The position numbers and the translations under genes were made by a program. A stretch of DNA of 28,809 nt from a virus. Positions 5,012 through 28,699 of the stretch are shown in pieces. The stretch lies in the IMG/VR virus record IMGVR_UViG_3300020060_000023, positions 1 through 28,809 of that record. The stretch is one strand, 5' to 3'. Position 1 is the stretch's first letter, and the number at the start of each line of letters is the position of its first letter. The notes below the pieces were generated by a model. The model searched no databases, was not told where the DNA came from, and saw nothing but the letters and a program-made list of their open reading frames with translations.

Positions 5012-5220
5012 GGCTGATCCTTGGCGAGTTCGGCGAGTAGTGCATCGGCAAACTGAACTGCGGTCTGCGCGCATGTACGCGGATATTCAGGACCGTCGAC
5101 GCCGGTCACGAACCCCTGCATCGCCATTGCAGCGAACAACTCGCGCTTAGTCAGGCCGAACTGGCCGGGCCCGACGTTCGATGCGTAGGCTCCTTGGTTG
5201 CCGAGAGTCTTAGCGTCCAT
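5008..5220 (-). CDS. Unknown 70-aa phage protein
   Basis: The core LTKRELFAAMAMQGFVTG is a recurring signature of small hypothetical phage proteins, followed by a helical segment FADALLAELAK. Function unknown. It overlaps the Lar-like gene by 11 bases and couples to the next gene by ATGA. Confidence 0.65.
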   Translation of the reverse strand: MDAKTLGNQGAYASNVGPGQFGLTKRELFAAMAMQGFVTGVDGPEYPRTCAQTAVQFADALLAELAKDQP

Positions 5221-5764
5221 TTCCCGCCTCCTCCCCCGAACCGCGCGGATCGCGGGCGATGGCTACTGGCACCATCGCGCTTATTGATTGGAGTGCAGCC
5301 AGCATTCTTGGCGGCAACGGTTTGAATGCGCTGTCGTAAGCATCAGCAGCTTTTTCTGCATCTTCAATAGTCACAGGTCGATAATCCTTCGCATCCCTCA
5401 ACGCGGTTTCGGCGAGGGGTGTGCGGGCAAGGTCGTACTCCAGAATCGCATCGACAATCAGGCGCTTTGTATCGTTGCGCTCGGCGTCGCTGTCCTCATC
5501 GAAGGAGGTGCGATTCAAAATCGTGTTTGCGGCCTCCTCCATTAATAGGTGATCGCTGCGCTTGCAGCGGGTATTCCACGTTGACTGCGGGTTTATGAAA
5601 TCGTCATCGCTGAACACTACCCCGCACACAAAGCAGCCGACATGGTATGGAGGAACGTGTTGTCCACCGCTCCCAACTTCATCCGGCTTTAGCTTGGCCG
5701 CGCCGCCACAAAACGGACATGGTAAAAGTTCGATCGGCACTGCGTTCCCAGCGGGCGTGTTCAA
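5210..5764 (-). CDS. Lar-like restriction-alleviation / zinc-ribbon protein
   Basis: 184 aa. The N-terminal part has ELLPCPFCGGAAKL (CPFC), then HVGCFVCG (CxxC) and a STWNTR ending, the pattern of the Lar family. Known Lar proteins relieve type I restriction by modulating host methylation/restriction. Here a second half of about 110 residues follows the zinc module, rich in acidic helices, so the protein is longer than a typical Lar and may do more. The TTG at 5764 was chosen since GGGAGAGCAGC precedes it and it overlaps the upstream stop (TTGA). Confidence 0.65.
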   Translation of the reverse strand: MNTPAGNAVPIELLPCPFCGGAAKLKPDEVGSGGQHVPPYHVGCFVCGVVFSDDDFINPQSTWNTRCKRSDHLLMEEAANTILNRTSFDEDSDAERNDTKRLIVDAILEYDLARTPLAETALRDAKDYRPVTIEDAEKAADAYDSAFKPLPPRMLAALQSISAMVPVAIARDPRGSGEEAGNGR

Positions 5765-6387
5765 GCTGCTCTCCCAAGTCGTTGTAGGTAGTTCGCCTCG
5801 AACATGGCTTGCGCGAATCCTGGTGGCGTTGCACTGCGCAGGTTCGCCCGCTCCTCGCTCGGCGGCATGGTGTGTATGCGGGTGTCCGTGGGATCGATCC
5901 GTTGCTTCTGCGGCATGACGAGTCCGTTGCCGGTCCACAGGCACGTCTTCTTCGGATAGGTGTCGCCCTCTCCGCCCGGGTATCCGGCGTAGTCGCAGGG
6001 ATCGAACGTGTGATCCGCCTTGCGCCAGTAGGTGGAGATCGTGCTGACCGGGTTCTCGATGAAGTAGGGGACGCCGAGCGTTTCCAGGATGTCCGCGGAA
6101 TGGGCGAACAGTTCGATGGCCTCAGCCAGCGCGAACAGCCCCTTGCCCTTGAACCAGCGCGCGCCAGAGACTGCCAGATCGGTGCATGGTGTAAACGCGC
6201 AGCCGAATACCCAATCGCGCTGTGGCGCTCTCCAGCGGCGTATGTCGGCACCCACGCGGATGACGTTGCCAACCCGTGCCTCACCCTTCGGATGCTGCGA
6301 GTCAACCGACCAGCACTCCACGCCGGCATCAGCCCAAGGCTTAGCCATCGTGTCGGTCAGGTTGAACAGGAACAGCGCGGATTTCAC
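5761..6387 (-). CDS. DNA cytosine-methyltransferase-like phage protein
   Basis: 208 aa. FTPCTDLAVSGARWF and the ENPVS motif at about residue 113 resemble motif IV and the ENV-like motif VI of C5-cytosine methyltransferases as found in compact phage homologues; the later YPKKTCLWTGNGL block also fits that group. The classical PCQ loop is replaced by TPCTD. Known full enzymes are longer, so this may be a minimal or divergent enzyme, or one modifying another base. It lies next to the Lar-like gene, forming an anti-restriction pair. Confidence 0.62.
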   Translation of the reverse strand: MKSALFLFNLTDTMAKPWADAGVECWSVDSQHPKGEARVGNVIRVGADIRRWRAPQRDWVFGCAFTPCTDLAVSGARWFKGKGLFALAEAIELFAHSADILETLGVPYFIENPVSTISTYWRKADHTFDPCDYAGYPGGEGDTYPKKTCLWTGNGLVMPQKQRIDPTDTRIHTMPPSEERANLRSATPPGFAQAMFEANYLQRLGRAA

Positions 6388-18279: not shown

Positions 18280-18747
18280 TTGGCTTCCCAGATTCGCTCC
18301 TTCGCAACGGGAGCAGGTAGTGCTCTAGCACTAGCAGCAACACTCGTCATGGCGTTCGAGGGGTACATCCCTATGACGTACCGTGATGCAGTCGGAATCA
18401 ATACAGCCTGCTTTGGTCACACAGGGCCGGATGTAACACCAGGCAAGACATACACGAAAGAGGAATGCGACCGCCTTCTGCATGGCGACCTCCTCGAAGC
18501 CTACACAGCGGTTCAGCAGTGTGTCCGCGTTCCACTGAAACCCACACAGTCTGCTGCCCTGGTTTCGTTCACGTTTAACGTGGGCACCAATGCCTTCTGC
18601 GGATCGACGCTCGTAAAGCGCATCAACGCAGGAGAGCTTCCCGCAGCCTGCGCAGAAATCTCCCGCTGGCACTACGCACGCGGCATCAGTCTCCGAGGGC
18701 TCGTCAAGAGACGCGCAGCAGAACGTGCGCTCTGTGAATCAGCGTAG
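18280..18747 (+). CDS. SAR endolysin, lysozyme (GH24) family
   Basis: 155 aa from a TTG. Residues 10-26 (TGAGSALALAATLVMAF) are a weakly hydrophobic Ala/Gly-rich signal-anchor-release segment. It is followed by E27-x8-D36-x5-T42 (FEGYIPMTYRDAVGINT), exactly the catalytic spacing of P21/P1-type GH24 lysozymes that cleave the peptidoglycan backbone. Length fits the family. Such endolysins are exported by the host sec system, held in the membrane and released on depolarisation by a (pin)holin. The cysteines at 44, 64 and others could make regulatory disulphides. Confidence 0.85.
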   Translation: MASQIRSFATGAGSALALAATLVMAFEGYIPMTYRDAVGINTACFGHTGPDVTPGKTYTKEECDRLLHGDLLEAYTAVQQCVRVPLKPTQSAALVSFTFNVGTNAFCGSTLVKRINAGELPAACAEISRWHYARGISLRGLVKRRAAERALCESA

Positions 18748-21576: not shown

Positions 21577-21899
21577 GTGCGCATACTGGTGGTTGGAGCA
21601 TACGAACCTGTTTGCCGATCTACCGCGACAAGCAGACCCTTGCGGACGGCTCCGGATTATCTACATTTGCCGGCGCTCCCATTCTTCTCGCCAATGAACT
21701 CGGATACCCGCTCTACAACACCTACACGCTCGCCGATGGCTCTTGGACGTTCTGGGACATCAATGCAGTTGACGGAACCTATTACGCCTACACAGTCGCA
21801 CTTGGTGAGGACTGGCGCATTGTCGTCACCAATCCCACGGCCGTAGTGACGCAGGTCCACTACGCTTCGCGCGCTTCGTCTCAGGCGTTCATAGGATGA
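21573..21899 (+). CDS. Unknown 108-aa protein near appendage genes
   Basis: GAPILLANELGYPLYNTYTL and WDINAVDGTYYAYTVALGED suggest a beta-rich virion-associated protein. It overlaps both neighbours by ATGA and is followed by the terminase genes. No family recognised. Confidence 0.52.
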   Translation: MSAHTGGWSIRTCLPIYRDKQTLADGSGLSTFAGAPILLANELGYPLYNTYTLADGSWTFWDINAVDGTYYAYTVALGEDWRIVVTNPTAVVTQVHYASRASSQAFIG

Positions 21900-22348
21900 G
21901 CGAAGAGAAGCGCGGCCCCGGTCGCCCCAAGAAAGAAGTCGAGAAAGACTTCAACGATCTCTCCGAGCCGGAGATGATCCTGTACCTCTACAAGAACGGT
22001 TGGACAGACTCTCAGGTCTGTGGCGACTTGCAGATGACCAAGGAAGAGTTCGACGAACGATTCAAGACGGACACGGAGTTTGCTCGCTGGATTTCATATG
22101 GCCGCATGCTCTGTCGTGCTTGGTGGGAAAACAAATACCGCGACTCGGCTGAAGGCGCGAAGCTCAATGCCCCGATGGTCAACTTCGCAATGAAGAACCT
22201 GTTCGGATGGGCGGAGAAGAGCGAGACCACGAACACAGACATCGCGCAGATCGGCGACATGTCCCGCGATGAGGCGATGCAGAAGCTCAGAGAACTGGGG
22301 CCAAAGATCGCAGACATCATTGAGATGAGGCCGAAGAAAACAGGGTAA
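21896..22348 (+). CDS. terS: Terminase small subunit
   Basis: 150 aa. A basic start (EEKRGPGRPKKE), then a helix-turn-helix-like region (LYKNGWTDSQVCGDLQMTKE) and helices ending LNAPMVNFAMKNLFGWAEKS, the typical small-terminase pattern. The protein recognises phage DNA for packaging and brings it to the large subunit. It overlaps the next start (TAATG) and its position before the ATPase supports the call. Confidence 0.78.
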   Translation: MSEEKRGPGRPKKEVEKDFNDLSEPEMILYLYKNGWTDSQVCGDLQMTKEEFDERFKTDTEFARWISYGRMLCRAWWENKYRDSAEGAKLNAPMVNFAMKNLFGWAEKSETTNTDIAQIGDMSRDEAMQKLRELGPKIADIIEMRPKKTG

Positions 22349-23163
22349 TGCTTCAAACCAACAAGGACCGTAAGGTCAGCGTCGAGGACCAAGGAAAGGT
22401 AGCTCGACTGCTCAGGAAGCTCGAATCCAAGCAGTCGAAGACGCTCACCACTAACCCAAAAGATTTGATGTATGCAGCGGCTCTCATCGAGCACTGTGAC
22501 AAGCTGCAAGAGACTGGCGGGCATCTCTACAAGATATTCCAGCCCGGCCCACTCTCCATAGAGAACTACTCGCACCACAAGGCGTTCTTCGACGCCACTG
22601 CCACCCACAAAGAAGTGCTGTTTCGCGCCGCGAATCGGGTCGGCAAATCAGTTGCAGGCGCTTACGCCTCAACGTGCTGGACAACGGGCCGCTACCCCGA
22701 GTGGTGGAAAGGCCGCGTGTTCGACAAGCCTACGAAGGGATGGGTGTGTGGCGACACCAACGACACCGTACGGACGATCCTCCAAGAGAAATTGCTGGGG
22801 CAACCGTACGGAACTGGGCTGATCCCGAAAGAGAACATTCTCGACATCGTAGTGAGGCCGAACACGGGCGGCACGGTAGACACGATCTACATACGCCACA
22901 CGCCGACGAAGAAAGTCTCACGAGTCAAATTCAAGACGTATCAATCCGGCGCTGAGTCGTTCTACGGCGATGACCCGGACTTCGGATGGATGGACGAAGA
23001 ACCGAGCGGCAAGGATGCGCAGCTCATCTGGAACCAAATGTACATGCGTCTTCTGACCACCAACGGATCACTTCTCATCACGTTCACTCCGCTCCTTGGT
23101 TGGACACCGCTGGTCCGTAGCTTCTCCGAGACCGCAGTCGATTTGACGCCGCAAGATGACTGA
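22348..23163 (+). CDS. terL: Terminase large subunit, ATPase half
   Basis: 271 aa. Walker A near residue 93 (RAANRVGKS), Walker B DFGWMDEE at 211-218, and coupling motif LLITFTPLLG at 242-251. This is the ATP-driven motor of DNA packaging; the usual single protein continues into a nuclease domain. Here the frame ends at TGA 23161-23163 and the nuclease continues from an overlapping ATG. An upstream TGA at 23144 in the other frame blocks simple in-frame fusion. Confidence 0.88.
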   Translation: MLQTNKDRKVSVEDQGKVARLLRKLESKQSKTLTTNPKDLMYAAALIEHCDKLQETGGHLYKIFQPGPLSIENYSHHKAFFDATATHKEVLFRAANRVGKSVAGAYASTCWTTGRYPEWWKGRVFDKPTKGWVCGDTNDTVRTILQEKLLGQPYGTGLIPKENILDIVVRPNTGGTVDTIYIRHTPTKKVSRVKFKTYQSGAESFYGDDPDFGWMDEEPSGKDAQLIWNQMYMRLLTTNGSLLITFTPLLGWTPLVRSFSETAVDLTPQDD

Positions 23164-23917
23164 ACTGTTTACCGGACGAGCGCTCATCACAGCAGGAATG
23201 AAGCACGCCGCCCATCTTTCCAAAGCTCAGATCGACGAAGCCAGAGACAAGACGCCTCAGTATCTCCGCGCTGCGGTGATCGACGGCGACCCCACGATGG
23301 GCGCTGGCAACGTGTATCAAGTCGTCCGATCTGACGTTGAATACGACTACATCAGAGACTCCAAAGGAAAGTACATCGAAGTCCCTGCGCACTGGAAGCG
23401 CATCGGCGGTCTCGACGTAGGGTTCAACTGCACAGCGTTTCTCGCTGGTGCTTACGACGCAGATAGCGACATCGTCTACATAACCGACGAGTTCTTCTCA
23501 CACAAGCAACCCCCCGCTGTCGTTGCCTCCGGTATCCGTCTTCGCAAAGGAGACAAGTACCCGATCATGACGGACTACGCGGGAACCGATCAGAGCGACG
23601 GTAAAAAGCTGATCGTTGAATACCGCAAGGAAAAGCTCGATTGCCGTCCCGCGGATAAAGCGGTTGAAGCAGGCACCCACGCCGTTTGGCACCGCCTCTC
23701 TACAGGTCGCTTGAGAGTCTTCAAGCACTGCACCGAGACCCTGCGCGAATACGAGCTGTATCAGCGCGACATCAACGGCCTCATCGTCAAAAAGAACGAC
23801 CACGGAATGGACGCTATGCGCTACCTCGTGATGGGTCTCAAACAGGCCAAGCTCATTTACCAGACCGATAAGTCTCCTAGTCCGTTCAAGTACCGCTACA
23901 ACTTCGCCGGAAGCTAA
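23156..23917 (+). CDS. Terminase large subunit, nuclease half
   Basis: 253 aa, ATG at 23156 overlapping the ATPase stop (ATGACTGA). RNase-H-like nuclease with three visible acids: D87 (IGGLDVGF), D140 (IMTDYAG) and D219 (DHGMDAMRY). It cuts concatemeric phage DNA at headful or cos-like ends. The first part, AAHLSKAQIDEARDKTP, aligns with the linker of single-chain terminases. All catalytic residues appear intact, so the pair may work as two chains. Confidence 0.85.
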   Translation: MTELFTGRALITAGMKHAAHLSKAQIDEARDKTPQYLRAAVIDGDPTMGAGNVYQVVRSDVEYDYIRDSKGKYIEVPAHWKRIGGLDVGFNCTAFLAGAYDADSDIVYITDEFFSHKQPPAVVASGIRLRKGDKYPIMTDYAGTDQSDGKKLIVEYRKEKLDCRPADKAVEAGTHAVWHRLSTGRLRVFKHCTETLREYELYQRDINGLIVKKNDHGMDAMRYLVMGLKQAKLIYQTDKSPSPFKYRYNFAGS

Positions 23918-23918
23918 T

Positions 23919-26327
23919 TTGAGTACGATTGCTACATCTCCCTCTGACGAAGAAATAGACGCGCTCGTTGCTGTCCTCAGCCCAGAGGATTTGGCGCGGC
24001 TAGAAGCGGAAGACGCCGAGTTCGAGGCGAAAGCGGCTGAAGAGAAAAAGCATCAGCTTGCGCTTTTGGCGAAAGAGATTGAGGGCAAGTTCAACGAAGA
24101 TGCTGCTCAGCGCCAGCGCAAAGAGATCGAGTGGTATTGGGCAGAGCGCCTGACCCTCGGCTCCATGTGGAAGCTGTACAACCGCTGGGGGTCTAACGAC
24201 AAACCGTTCGATGTCAAAACAGACATCACGGGTGACGACGACGAGAAGCCCGAGTTCAACATCGTCAAGCCGAAGCTCCGCATCGCTCAGTCTCAGTTGG
24301 AGATGATGCAGTTTGGTGCCGGCACGGACAAGAACTTCTCGATCAAAGCGAAGAAGCCTGCGCGTATGCAGGCTCAGATGAACTCCTCTGCTCCGCTGTT
24401 CCAGGCGGACGGACAGACCCCTATCGTCAATCCCGAGACCGGGCAGCCCATGACTATGGGCGAGGCTGTTGGTCTCAAGAACGCACAGGACGACGAACAA
24501 GCGCGTCAGATGGAAGAGACGTGCTGGTCGCAGATGCAGTCGGCCGGCTACGGCCAGAAGATGCGTCTGGGCTTTGCTGATCTCTCGACGTACGGCTCAG
24601 TGATTTACAAGGGGCCGATCAACTGCACTACGGGCAACAAAATCCGTATGCAGATGCAGCCGTCAGAAGGCCCCCCGATCTGGGTTACATCCTACTCCCA
24701 AGAGCGTAGGCCCGATTTCGAGCTGTGCAATCCGTGGCTGTTCTACCCAGACTATCGTGCTCTTACGATTGCGGAAGCCGAGCATGCCACCCTCCTCCAT
24801 ATCTACTCGCCGACACAGCTCAAGCTGCTCGCCGGTCAGGATGGCTTCGACAAGGCGGCAATCGCGGAGTGTCTGGCTCAGAAGCCGATTGGCGACTACT
24901 ACCAAGCCTTCCGAGCGAGAGCTGTCCGCTTTGACAACACCAAGTTCCTAGAGAACAAATACGTGTGCCTTGAGTGGCACGGCACCGTCGGCATGAAGCA
25001 GTTGGGTGATCTCGGCATTGATCCGCCGTACGAGAACCCGTTCGACATGTACAAGGCCGAGGTGTGGGTTTGCCAAGGCCGTGTGATCTACGCATGCCTT
25101 GAGATGCTGGAAGCAGAGCTTTGCCTGCCCTTCGCTCTCAACGTGTGGGAGCCTGACCCCTCTTCGATGTTCGGCTTCGGCGCGATCCTGCTCCGCGACG
25201 CGCAGCGTGTCGTGAACATGACGTACAAGATGGTCCTGGACAACGCCGGTCTCTGTGCTCTGCCTCAGGTCGCCATCGACCGCGAAGGCATCGAGCCTCA
25301 GAGCGGCAAGCCCGAGATTACGCCGGGCCAGGTGTGGAACAAAACTGAGAACGGAATGGGACGGCCGATCGGTGAAATGATCGAGTTCTTCTACGTTCCC
25401 GACAATCTCCAGATGCTCACGTCTGTCATGAACATGGCGCGAGAGTTCGGAGACGAAGAGTCTGGTACGCCGCTGATCGCTGGTGGCATGGGCGACCCTC
25501 AGGTGGGCGACACGGGCGCTACCGGCATGGCAATGATCATGCAGGCGAGCACAAGCGTCCTAAGCAGCAAAGCGCGCCAATGGGACGACAAGATCACTGG
25601 TCCGGTGGTCAACTGGTTCTACGAATGGAACATGCAGTATTCGTCCAAGGAAGAGATCAAGGGCGACTACGACGTAGACGTTCAGACCTCGACCGCCTAT
25701 CTCAACAAGGTGATACAGCAACGCGACCTTGAAAGGCTCTGTGTCGAATACGCGCAGAACCCGGAGGTCCAGAAGCGCATCCGTGGCAATGAGCTGTATC
25801 GCGCCCGCTTCTCTGCGATGAACATCCCGTTTGACTCTCTCGTCCGTTCGGAAGAGGAAGTCAAGCAGATTGAGATGCAGCAGGCCGAAGCTGCCAAGAA
25901 CAACCCCGATCCGGCTTCCCTGAAAGCACAGGCCGACCTGATCAACGCCAACGCTCACGCGCAAGACGTTCAGAACGACGCCAAGAAGCTGGAGTTTGAC
26001 GCCCATCAGGGCTTGGTGAACGCGGAGGCTGAGCGAGAGAACAACCTCGCCAACTACCAGACGCGCAACAACGAAGCGACAGCGCGTGCCATCGAGGCCA
26101 AGACCGAAGAGAACATCGCGATCATGTCTCTCGCGGCCAAGGACAAGCAAGAAGCCAGCAAACTCGTCGCCGAGCTGGACATCCACGACTCGACACAGCT
26201 CTCCGAGCAGTTCACGGCCGGTGTCCTCGCACAGCAGGGACAGAAGAAGCTGGAGCTGGAAGAGCGGAAGGTCAAGGCGACTGAGGACGAAATAGCCCTC
26301 GCCAAGAAGACCGGGAGCGGAATTTGA
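23919..26327 (+). CDS. Portal protein
   Basis: 802 aa, TTG start with GGAAG upstream. The N-terminus is acidic. From about residue 110 (NIVKPKLRIAQSQLEMMQFG) a portal fold follows. The last 160 residues are Ala/Gln/Glu-rich coiled helices, like the barrel extension of P22-type portals (about 725 aa). It forms the ring through which DNA enters and leaves the head. Position between terminase and scaffold is standard. Assignment rests on context, length and pattern. Confidence 0.82.
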   Translation: MSTIATSPSDEEIDALVAVLSPEDLARLEAEDAEFEAKAAEEKKHQLALLAKEIEGKFNEDAAQRQRKEIEWYWAERLTLGSMWKLYNRWGSNDKPFDVKTDITGDDDEKPEFNIVKPKLRIAQSQLEMMQFGAGTDKNFSIKAKKPARMQAQMNSSAPLFQADGQTPIVNPETGQPMTMGEAVGLKNAQDDEQARQMEETCWSQMQSAGYGQKMRLGFADLSTYGSVIYKGPINCTTGNKIRMQMQPSEGPPIWVTSYSQERRPDFELCNPWLFYPDYRALTIAEAEHATLLHIYSPTQLKLLAGQDGFDKAAIAECLAQKPIGDYYQAFRARAVRFDNTKFLENKYVCLEWHGTVGMKQLGDLGIDPPYENPFDMYKAEVWVCQGRVIYACLEMLEAELCLPFALNVWEPDPSSMFGFGAILLRDAQRVVNMTYKMVLDNAGLCALPQVAIDREGIEPQSGKPEITPGQVWNKTENGMGRPIGEMIEFFYVPDNLQMLTSVMNMAREFGDEESGTPLIAGGMGDPQVGDTGATGMAMIMQASTSVLSSKARQWDDKITGPVVNWFYEWNMQYSSKEEIKGDYDVDVQTSTAYLNKVIQQRDLERLCVEYAQNPEVQKRIRGNELYRARFSAMNIPFDSLVRSEEEVKQIEMQQAEAAKNNPDPASLKAQADLINANAHAQDVQNDAKKLEFDAHQGLVNAEAERENNLANYQTRNNEATARAIEAKTEENIAIMSLAAKDKQEASKLVAELDIHDSTQLSEQFTAGVLAQQGQKKLELEERKVKATEDEIALAKKTGSGI

Positions 26328-27694: not shown

Positions 27695-28699
27695 ATGACT
27701 CAGCTAGTCAATACCTACGGTGGTATTGGTTCGCGTACGAACGTCTTTGCAGACGAGAAGTTCCTTAGCCATGCGCTTCCGCAGTTGGTTCTGGAACGGT
27801 ACGCAACCGTCAAGCCACTTCCGAAAAACAAGACCCTGACGATCGTCTTCCGTCGCTCGATTCCGTTCGACGTTACCGACGTTCCGCTTCAGGAAGGTGT
27901 AACCCCCACCCCGCTCGGCATGCAGTTTGAAGATGTCCGCGCCACGATGAAAGAGTACGGCGACTGGGTTCAGATCAGCAACATCATCGCTGATACCCAC
28001 GAAGACCCGGTGCTTAGTGAAGCTACCGAACTGCTCGGCGAAAAGGCCGGTCAGACTCGTGAGCTGATCAACTGGGGCAACTTCCGCTCCGGCACTTCCA
28101 TCTTCTACGCTTCGACGGCTGCGTCTCCGACGCTGCGCACTGACGTTAACGCTCCGATTAACCTCTCGCTGATCCGCAAGGTTGAGACGTTCCTCGACGG
28201 CCAGTACGCCAAGCGCATCACGAAGATGATCAACCCGTCTTCGGACTACGGCACCACAGCCGTTCCGGAAGGTTACGTTGCTATCGGCCACACCGATCAG
28301 CGCGGCGACCTGTACGACATCCCCGGCTTCCGTCGCAAGGAACTGTATGCGTCGGGTAGTCCGGAACCGAACGAAGTTGGTTCGGCTGATGGACTGCGCT
28401 TCGTCATCTCGGCGTTCCTCAAGCCCCTGCCTGGTGCTGGTTCGGCCACGCTCAACGGTATGCGCAGCACCAACAGCGCCGTTGACGTGTATTCGACCAT
28501 CGTCTTTGGTCAGGAAGCAATCGGCACGGTGCCTCTCAAGGGCATGAACGAAGCAATGATCAAGGTCCGCAATCCGGGCCAGATCGACTCCGGCGATCCG
28601 CTGGGTCAGCGTGGCTTCGTGTCGTACCGCATGTACCACACCTCTCTGATCCTCAACCAGAACTGGATTTCGAGAATTGAGGCGGGAGCGACGGCGTAA
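27695..28699 (+). CDS. Major capsid protein, N4-gp56 family
   Basis: 334 aa. Near the start FLSHALPQLVLERYATVKPL is followed by PKNKTLTIVFRR, then EGVTPTPLGMQFEDVRATMK and YGDWVQISNIIADTHEDPV, the N4-gp56 signature run. FLDGQYAKRITKMINPS and AIGHTDQRGDLYDIPGF continue it. These form HK97-fold shells. AGAGACAAGTAACAA before the ATG is a form of the shared leader. It is the most abundant virion protein as a rule. Confidence 0.9.
   Translation: MTQLVNTYGGIGSRTNVFADEKFLSHALPQLVLERYATVKPLPKNKTLTIVFRRSIPFDVTDVPLQEGVTPTPLGMQFEDVRATMKEYGDWVQISNIIADTHEDPVLSEATELLGEKAGQTRELINWGNFRSGTSIFYASTAASPTLRTDVNAPINLSLIRKVETFLDGQYAKRITKMINPSSDYGTTAVPEGYVAIGHTDQRGDLYDIPGFRRKELYASGSPEPNEVGSADGLRFVISAFLKPLPGAGSATLNGMRSTNSAVDVYSTIVFGQEAIGTVPLKGMNEAMIKVRNPGQIDSGDPLGQRGFVSYRMYHTSLILNQNWISRIEAGATA

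Follow-up and report, generated by a model that had tools for sequence, protein, structure and literature searches.

In the best-studied phages, the packaging enzyme that drives and cuts DNA is one protein. Large terminases (TerL) of the P22/Sf6 type, such as P22 gp2 (4dkw), Sf6 gp2 and D6E TerL (5oe8), carry an ATPase core and an RNase H-like fold, with their catalytic residues, on one chain, and their genes lie in a TerS–TerL–portal neighbourhood. The TerL of jumbo phages has been described as a two-domain protein (PMC7824862). In D6E TerL, Y213 and R224 belong to the lid, and residues 230–241 make up the linker; in current models an arginine of the P-loop moves the lid in cis (PMC5727402). 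The locus described here lies in a 28,809-base IMG/VR virus record that carries no completeness estimate, and we refer to this whole stretch of DNA as the window. Its TerL has the same folds, catalytic residues and gene neighbourhood as the P22/Sf6-type enzymes, but the ASCE core on the one hand and the lid and nuclease on the other are predicted to be separate gene products. The features concerned are:

21896–22348, + strand: small terminase (TerS); PHROG 309 terminase small subunit, E 1.2e-9
22348–23163, + strand: large terminase chain 1, predicted to hold the ASCE ATPase core only (Terminase_6N, PHROG 31467, AlphaFold)
22624–22650, + strand: Walker A (P-loop), RAANRVGKS; N96, G99 and K100 columns invariant or nearly so
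22987–23001, + strand: Walker B with catalytic Glu, WMDEE; D216 and E217 invariant or nearly so in 52 sequences
23080–23100, + strand: motif III (coupling motif), TFTPLLG; T245, T247, P248 and G251 invariant
23144–23146, + strand: TGA that shuts the nuclease frame upstream of the nuclease ATG (junction sequence)
23156–23163, + strand: 8-base overlap ATGACTGA, nuclease gene start and ATPase gene stop (junction sequence)
23156–23917, + strand: large terminase chain 2, predicted lid subdomain and RNase H-like nuclease (PHROGs 5653 and 2, AlphaFold)
23414–23812, + strand: nuclease acids D87 (23414–23416), D140 (23573–23575) and D219 (23810–23812), identified by conservation
23919–26327, + strand: portal, directly downstream of the nuclease gene; PHROG 332 connector, E 3.4e-23
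27695–28699, + strand: major capsid protein; PHROG 1357, E 1.5e-47

ORF calling in the window returned an intact ATPase gene of 271 amino acids and an intact nuclease gene of 253 amino acids that lie in different frames (a +1 relation), so that the two activities are not encoded on a single polypeptide. The ATPase stop codon is the TGA at 23161, and the overlapping nuclease ATG is at 23156. An earlier, sequence-only reading of this DNA had described the two-gene split with its overlap and the TGA at 23144, and had placed Walker A and B in gene 1 and the three nuclease acids in gene 2; the junction and the residue positions confirm this description. The order TerS–TerL–portal found in P22/Sf6-like phages is present, and the TerS and ATPase genes are themselves joined by a TAATG overlap. 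Elsewhere in the window are genes for a DNA methyltransferase (539–1522, − strand; PHROG 56), a Lar-like restriction alleviation protein (5210–5944, − strand) and an endolysin (18280–18747, + strand).

The first ORF matched Terminase_6N in Pfam (1.8e-6) and PHROG 31467 (7.9e-37), and the second matched the TerL PHROGs 5653 and 2. Pfam gave no match for TerS, the portal or the nuclease chain, all three of which were named by PHROGs. The latter collection contains families that cover a single half of the enzyme: the ATPase half alone is matched by PHROG 31467, a family of unknown function with 261 positions, and the nuclease half alone by PHROG 5653 (199 positions). All elements of a TerL P-loop ATPase (Walker A, Walker B, the catalytic glutamate and motif III) are present in chain 1, with G99 and K100 encoded at 22642–22647, D216 and E217 at 22993–22998, and TFTPLLG as the last conserved element. 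Chain 2 has the three metal-binding acids of an RNase H-like nuclease, which are invariant or nearly so in 52 sequences. The earlier reading had argued from intact active-site residues against decay, and these residues are indeed intact.

We modeled each chain alone with AlphaFold (pLDDT 89 for the ATPase chain and 86 for the nuclease chain), and both are predicted with confidence to fold as separate models. The ATPase chain model aligns to residues 11–200 of D6E TerL, 92–312 of T4 gp17 and 4–175 of Sf6 gp2 (Z 13–16), while the nuclease chain model aligns to the P22 gp2 nuclease (4dkw) with a Z score of 25.3 and to D6E TerL from residue 234 on. The sequence profile pairs residue 14 of the nuclease chain with D6E residue 198, which precedes the D6E lid, and the lid subdomain occupies the N-terminal part of chain 2 (helices 23–43). 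Given these alignments and the published positions of the D6E lid and linker, the models assign the ASCE core to gene 1 and the lid, linker and nuclease to gene 2. The cut is therefore placed by the models inside the ATPase domain, between the ASCE core and the lid, with the lid going with the nuclease. The sequence-only reading had held that single-chain terminases join their two domains at this point; that is roughly correct, but the join lies before the lid and not at the ATPase/nuclease border. By analogy with the D6E model, movement of the lid by the P-loop arginine would act between two chains in the window phage. In the model of chain 2 alone, the N-terminal stretch RALITAG is not part of any sheet; it is the likely strand by which this chain docks on the ATPase core.

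With a profile for each half (A1 and A2), we searched the stop-to-stop ORFs of the window and of 265 loci, whose sources were viral contigs, phage records and bacterial genomes. Both halves were found in 216 loci, as one ORF in 144 and as separate ORFs in 72 (61 of them distinct); because the sample is biased to relatives of the seed alignments, this proportion of one third is not a population frequency. At the split loci the ATPase profile reaches its end and the nuclease profile begins at its first few positions, and every ATPase/nuclease break in the 61 distinct loci falls in one short linker. Breaks within a domain, which served as a control for error, were seen in only 2 contigs. The split cases come from metagenomic contigs and from prophages in bacterial genomes, including those of Kushneria, Halomonas, Chromohalobacter, Litchfieldella, Azospirillum, Acetobacter, Vibrio galatheae, Eilatimonas and Fulvimarina. 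No plaque-forming isolate with a split TerL was found, the cultured phages inspected all having one gene, and a second full-length TerL was absent from 22 records with split loci, one of which is deposited as complete and circular. In loci L101 and L104, unlike the overlap type, the halves share a frame and are separated by several stop codons, possibly marking decayed linkers or short inserts. In another split TerL, at L075:1894–3462, the ATPase half contains an in-frame insertion of ∼280 amino acids at the P-loop (profile 25–87, then 85–244) that is probably an intein.

In 36 loci, no more than 100 bases separate the ATPase profile match from that of the nuclease. Counted from where the ATPase stop codon ends, nuclease starts fall at −3 in 12 loci (ATGA type), at 0 in 7 (TAATG/TGATG type), and at −7 and −13 in 4 each, a clustering typical of coupled junctions such as ATGA and TAATG. 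A Shine–Dalgarno match of at least 4 bases precedes 38% of nuclease starts versus 12% of ATGs inside ATPase genes (Fisher p 1e-6). The nuclease ATG of the window at 23156 has no such match, and its use would therefore depend on termination–reinitiation.

In about 20 loci the two halves flank whole genes, and the junction appears to act as an insertion site for cargo genes. The inserted genes include a Tad2-like (Thoeris anti-defence) gene in an Azospirillum prophage, which starts within an ATGA at the ATPase stop (L195:2334–2927), a Dam methylase (L117:6199–6804), an endonuclease VII (L122:2089–3003), a gp49/66-family protein and a beta-helix protein in the same locus (L189:863–1531 and L189:1824–3488), and a 702-amino-acid gene with no family match (L152:4481–6589). 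A small gene of 64–86 amino acids recurs between the halves in Halomonadaceae prophages (L187:3238–3498, L194:3265–3498 and L191:2732–2926); these genes also start within an ATGA at the ATPase stop and share a motif resembling RERGIKRG..IARKIDS...G..M.IAGAEFTV. In MW202785, a record deposited as complete and circular, the halves are separated by a 46-amino-acid HNH-endonuclease tail (PHROG 99, E 4.7e-5), a remnant that points to homing endonuclease insertion as one route to fission.

The nearest relatives of the window, L008 and L009 from two other metagenomes, are 63% identical to it in the ATPase and 59% in the nuclease, and have the same split in the same +1 relation with an overlap, ATGAGCACGATTAA, at the homologous place. 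Between these two loci there are 52 synonymous and 3 nonsynonymous changes in the ATPase gene (dN/dS 0.014), and 5 synonymous and no nonsynonymous changes in the nuclease gene; by these counts, the nearest split relatives are under strong purifying selection. Between the window and L008 synonymous sites are saturated, with pN/pS of 0.32 and 0.39. Synonymous divergence between L008 and L009 is itself uneven (0.28 in the ATPase gene and 0.027 in the nuclease gene), which suggests recombination, with its boundary likely to fall inside or close to this gene pair. The same split, which the sequence-only reading had proposed looking for in relatives, is thus present in L008/L009 and in many further loci. 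One continuous gene, which that reading would have taken as evidence against a natural split, is confined to remoter relatives, at no more than about 45% identity, whereas the nearest ones share the split.

With the linker left out of the alignment, a 163-locus tree requires 21 changes between single and split states under the most parsimonious assignment, of which 13 are forced by well-supported branches; a careful tree of 49 rows requires 8, of which 6 are forced, and these counts do not separate gain from loss. The split loci of the 49-row set form one clade in no bootstrap tree. The window and L009 (standing for L008/L009) fall inside a well-supported clade whose other TerLs are single-gene, and fission in the window, L008 and L009 was therefore probably a separate event of its own.

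The split might be a sequencing or assembly indel, or mark a dead gene that is decaying, as the metagenomic source of the window would allow. A second assembly of the same phage (L002/L007) does lack 4 bases elsewhere in the nuclease gene (at L007:2545, about 23740 in the window), which breaks the frame and is either a real variant or an assembly error. That assembly is, however, identical to the window across the junction, the split is kept in L008/L009 at the low dN/dS given above, the active-site residues are intact, and breaks fall 61 times in the linker against 2 inside domains. The split shared with L008/L009 and the confinement of 61 breaks to one linker are far beyond chance. With identical or homologous junctions in independent assemblies, we reject the indel that the earlier reading had allowed for and consider error or decay very improbable; on sequence grounds the split looks like a genuine, repeated redesign. 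Rejoining of the halves by RNA splicing or a split intein has precedent in the introns and inteins known from other terL genes (PMC12363816 and PMC7156551), but the 8-base overlap of the window ORFs leaves no space for an intron, and a search of the 20 gapped relatives for Rfam intron families found none. A split intein in the window was rejected, since neither chain model has an extra domain at the break. We give rejoining by splicing almost no weight.

A frameshift that makes a fusion had also been raised by the earlier reading; it would be a programmed +1 (or −2) shift within 23147–23163, with the full-length fusion either as the sole product or together with the short chain. Both frames are open from the TGA at 23144 to that at 23161, so a shift in this interval would produce a continuous chain, and the same +1 relation is kept in L008/L009. 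On inspection, however, there is no slippery heptamer in 23101–23220, the codons before the stop (GAT GAC TGA) permit no cognate +1 re-pairing, and the junction sequence differs between the window and L008, with no shared shift site. Relatives show neither a conserved slippery site nor a constant frame relation (+1 in 22 loci, −1 in 29 and the same frame in 10), and in many of them whole genes separate the two halves. Mixed frames, intervening genes and the lack of a heptamer in the window indicate that a fusion product is not the common mechanism, and we regard a frameshift in the window as unlikely. For the other possibility that the earlier reading had named, two translationally coupled proteins, there is support in the conserved splits, the stop/start overlaps, the Shine–Dalgarno enrichment and the inserted genes in relatives.

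We therefore favor, as very probable, fission of the TerL gene into two coupled cistrons whose products reassemble without a covalent link. The large terminase gene would have divided into two adjacent, translationally coupled cistrons, and a ribosome finishing chain 1 at the TGA at 23161 would reinitiate at the overlapping ATG at 23156, keeping the two chains in near equal amounts. The chains would pair non-covalently, most likely with the ATPase core as the docking surface for the lid and the orphan N-terminal strand of chain 2, and the resulting heterodimer would form a ring on the portal. For the window phage, separate translation, reinitiation, pairing, stoichiometry and motor function are all inferred from sequence. 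More tentatively, and with appreciable doubt, TerLs of a broad podovirus-like lineage may have undergone many breaks at the boundary between ASCE core and lid (the tree has at least 13 switches), producing a true two-subunit motor in which the power stroke would be coupled between chains, the lid–nuclease could be exchanged, regulated or present in a different number, and the gap would serve as a landing site for cargo.

DNA packaging models take the core, lid and nuclease to belong to one chain, with the lid and nuclease set in motion when the core hydrolyzes ATP. If fission is the correct reading, a natural motor with a separate core and lid–nuclease, evolved repeatedly, would imply that covalent linkage is not needed, and each half could be added, removed or mutated alone, so that coupling, and the change from packing DNA to cutting it, could be tested directly. 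In many phages, annotation pipelines will overlook the TerL marker or take only half of it, and so will phage trees based on terL.

In the open-access literature we found no two-gene TerL without splicing, only intron and intein cases and other split enzymes. The terL of Jug phages is interrupted by group I introns (PMC12363816) and that of Mic1 carries inteins (PMC7156551); the frame is interrupted there as in the window, but is spliced back to one chain, whereas the window has no splicing element. In jumbo phages, RNA polymerase beta subunits and DNA polymerase III alpha occur as separate polypeptides (PMC7824862), and like the window TerL are thus single-chain enzymes in pieces. For ribonucleotide reductase, NrdA is described as genes in pieces (Friedrich et al. 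2007, cited in PMC5418858), an essential phage enzyme made from two genes, with a break point that keeps function and a homing endonuclease as the splitting agent. Both cases place enzyme halves in two genes, and the HNH remnant of MW202785 parallels the homing endonuclease; NrdA is a different enzyme, however, and in the window the halves overlap, no insert is left, and the split TerL is a putative enzyme. The window TerL resembles genes in pieces in having intact complementary halves and no splicing element. By every feature tested except the single chain it would be classed as a TerL, and is best described as a gene-fission variant of that known enzyme.
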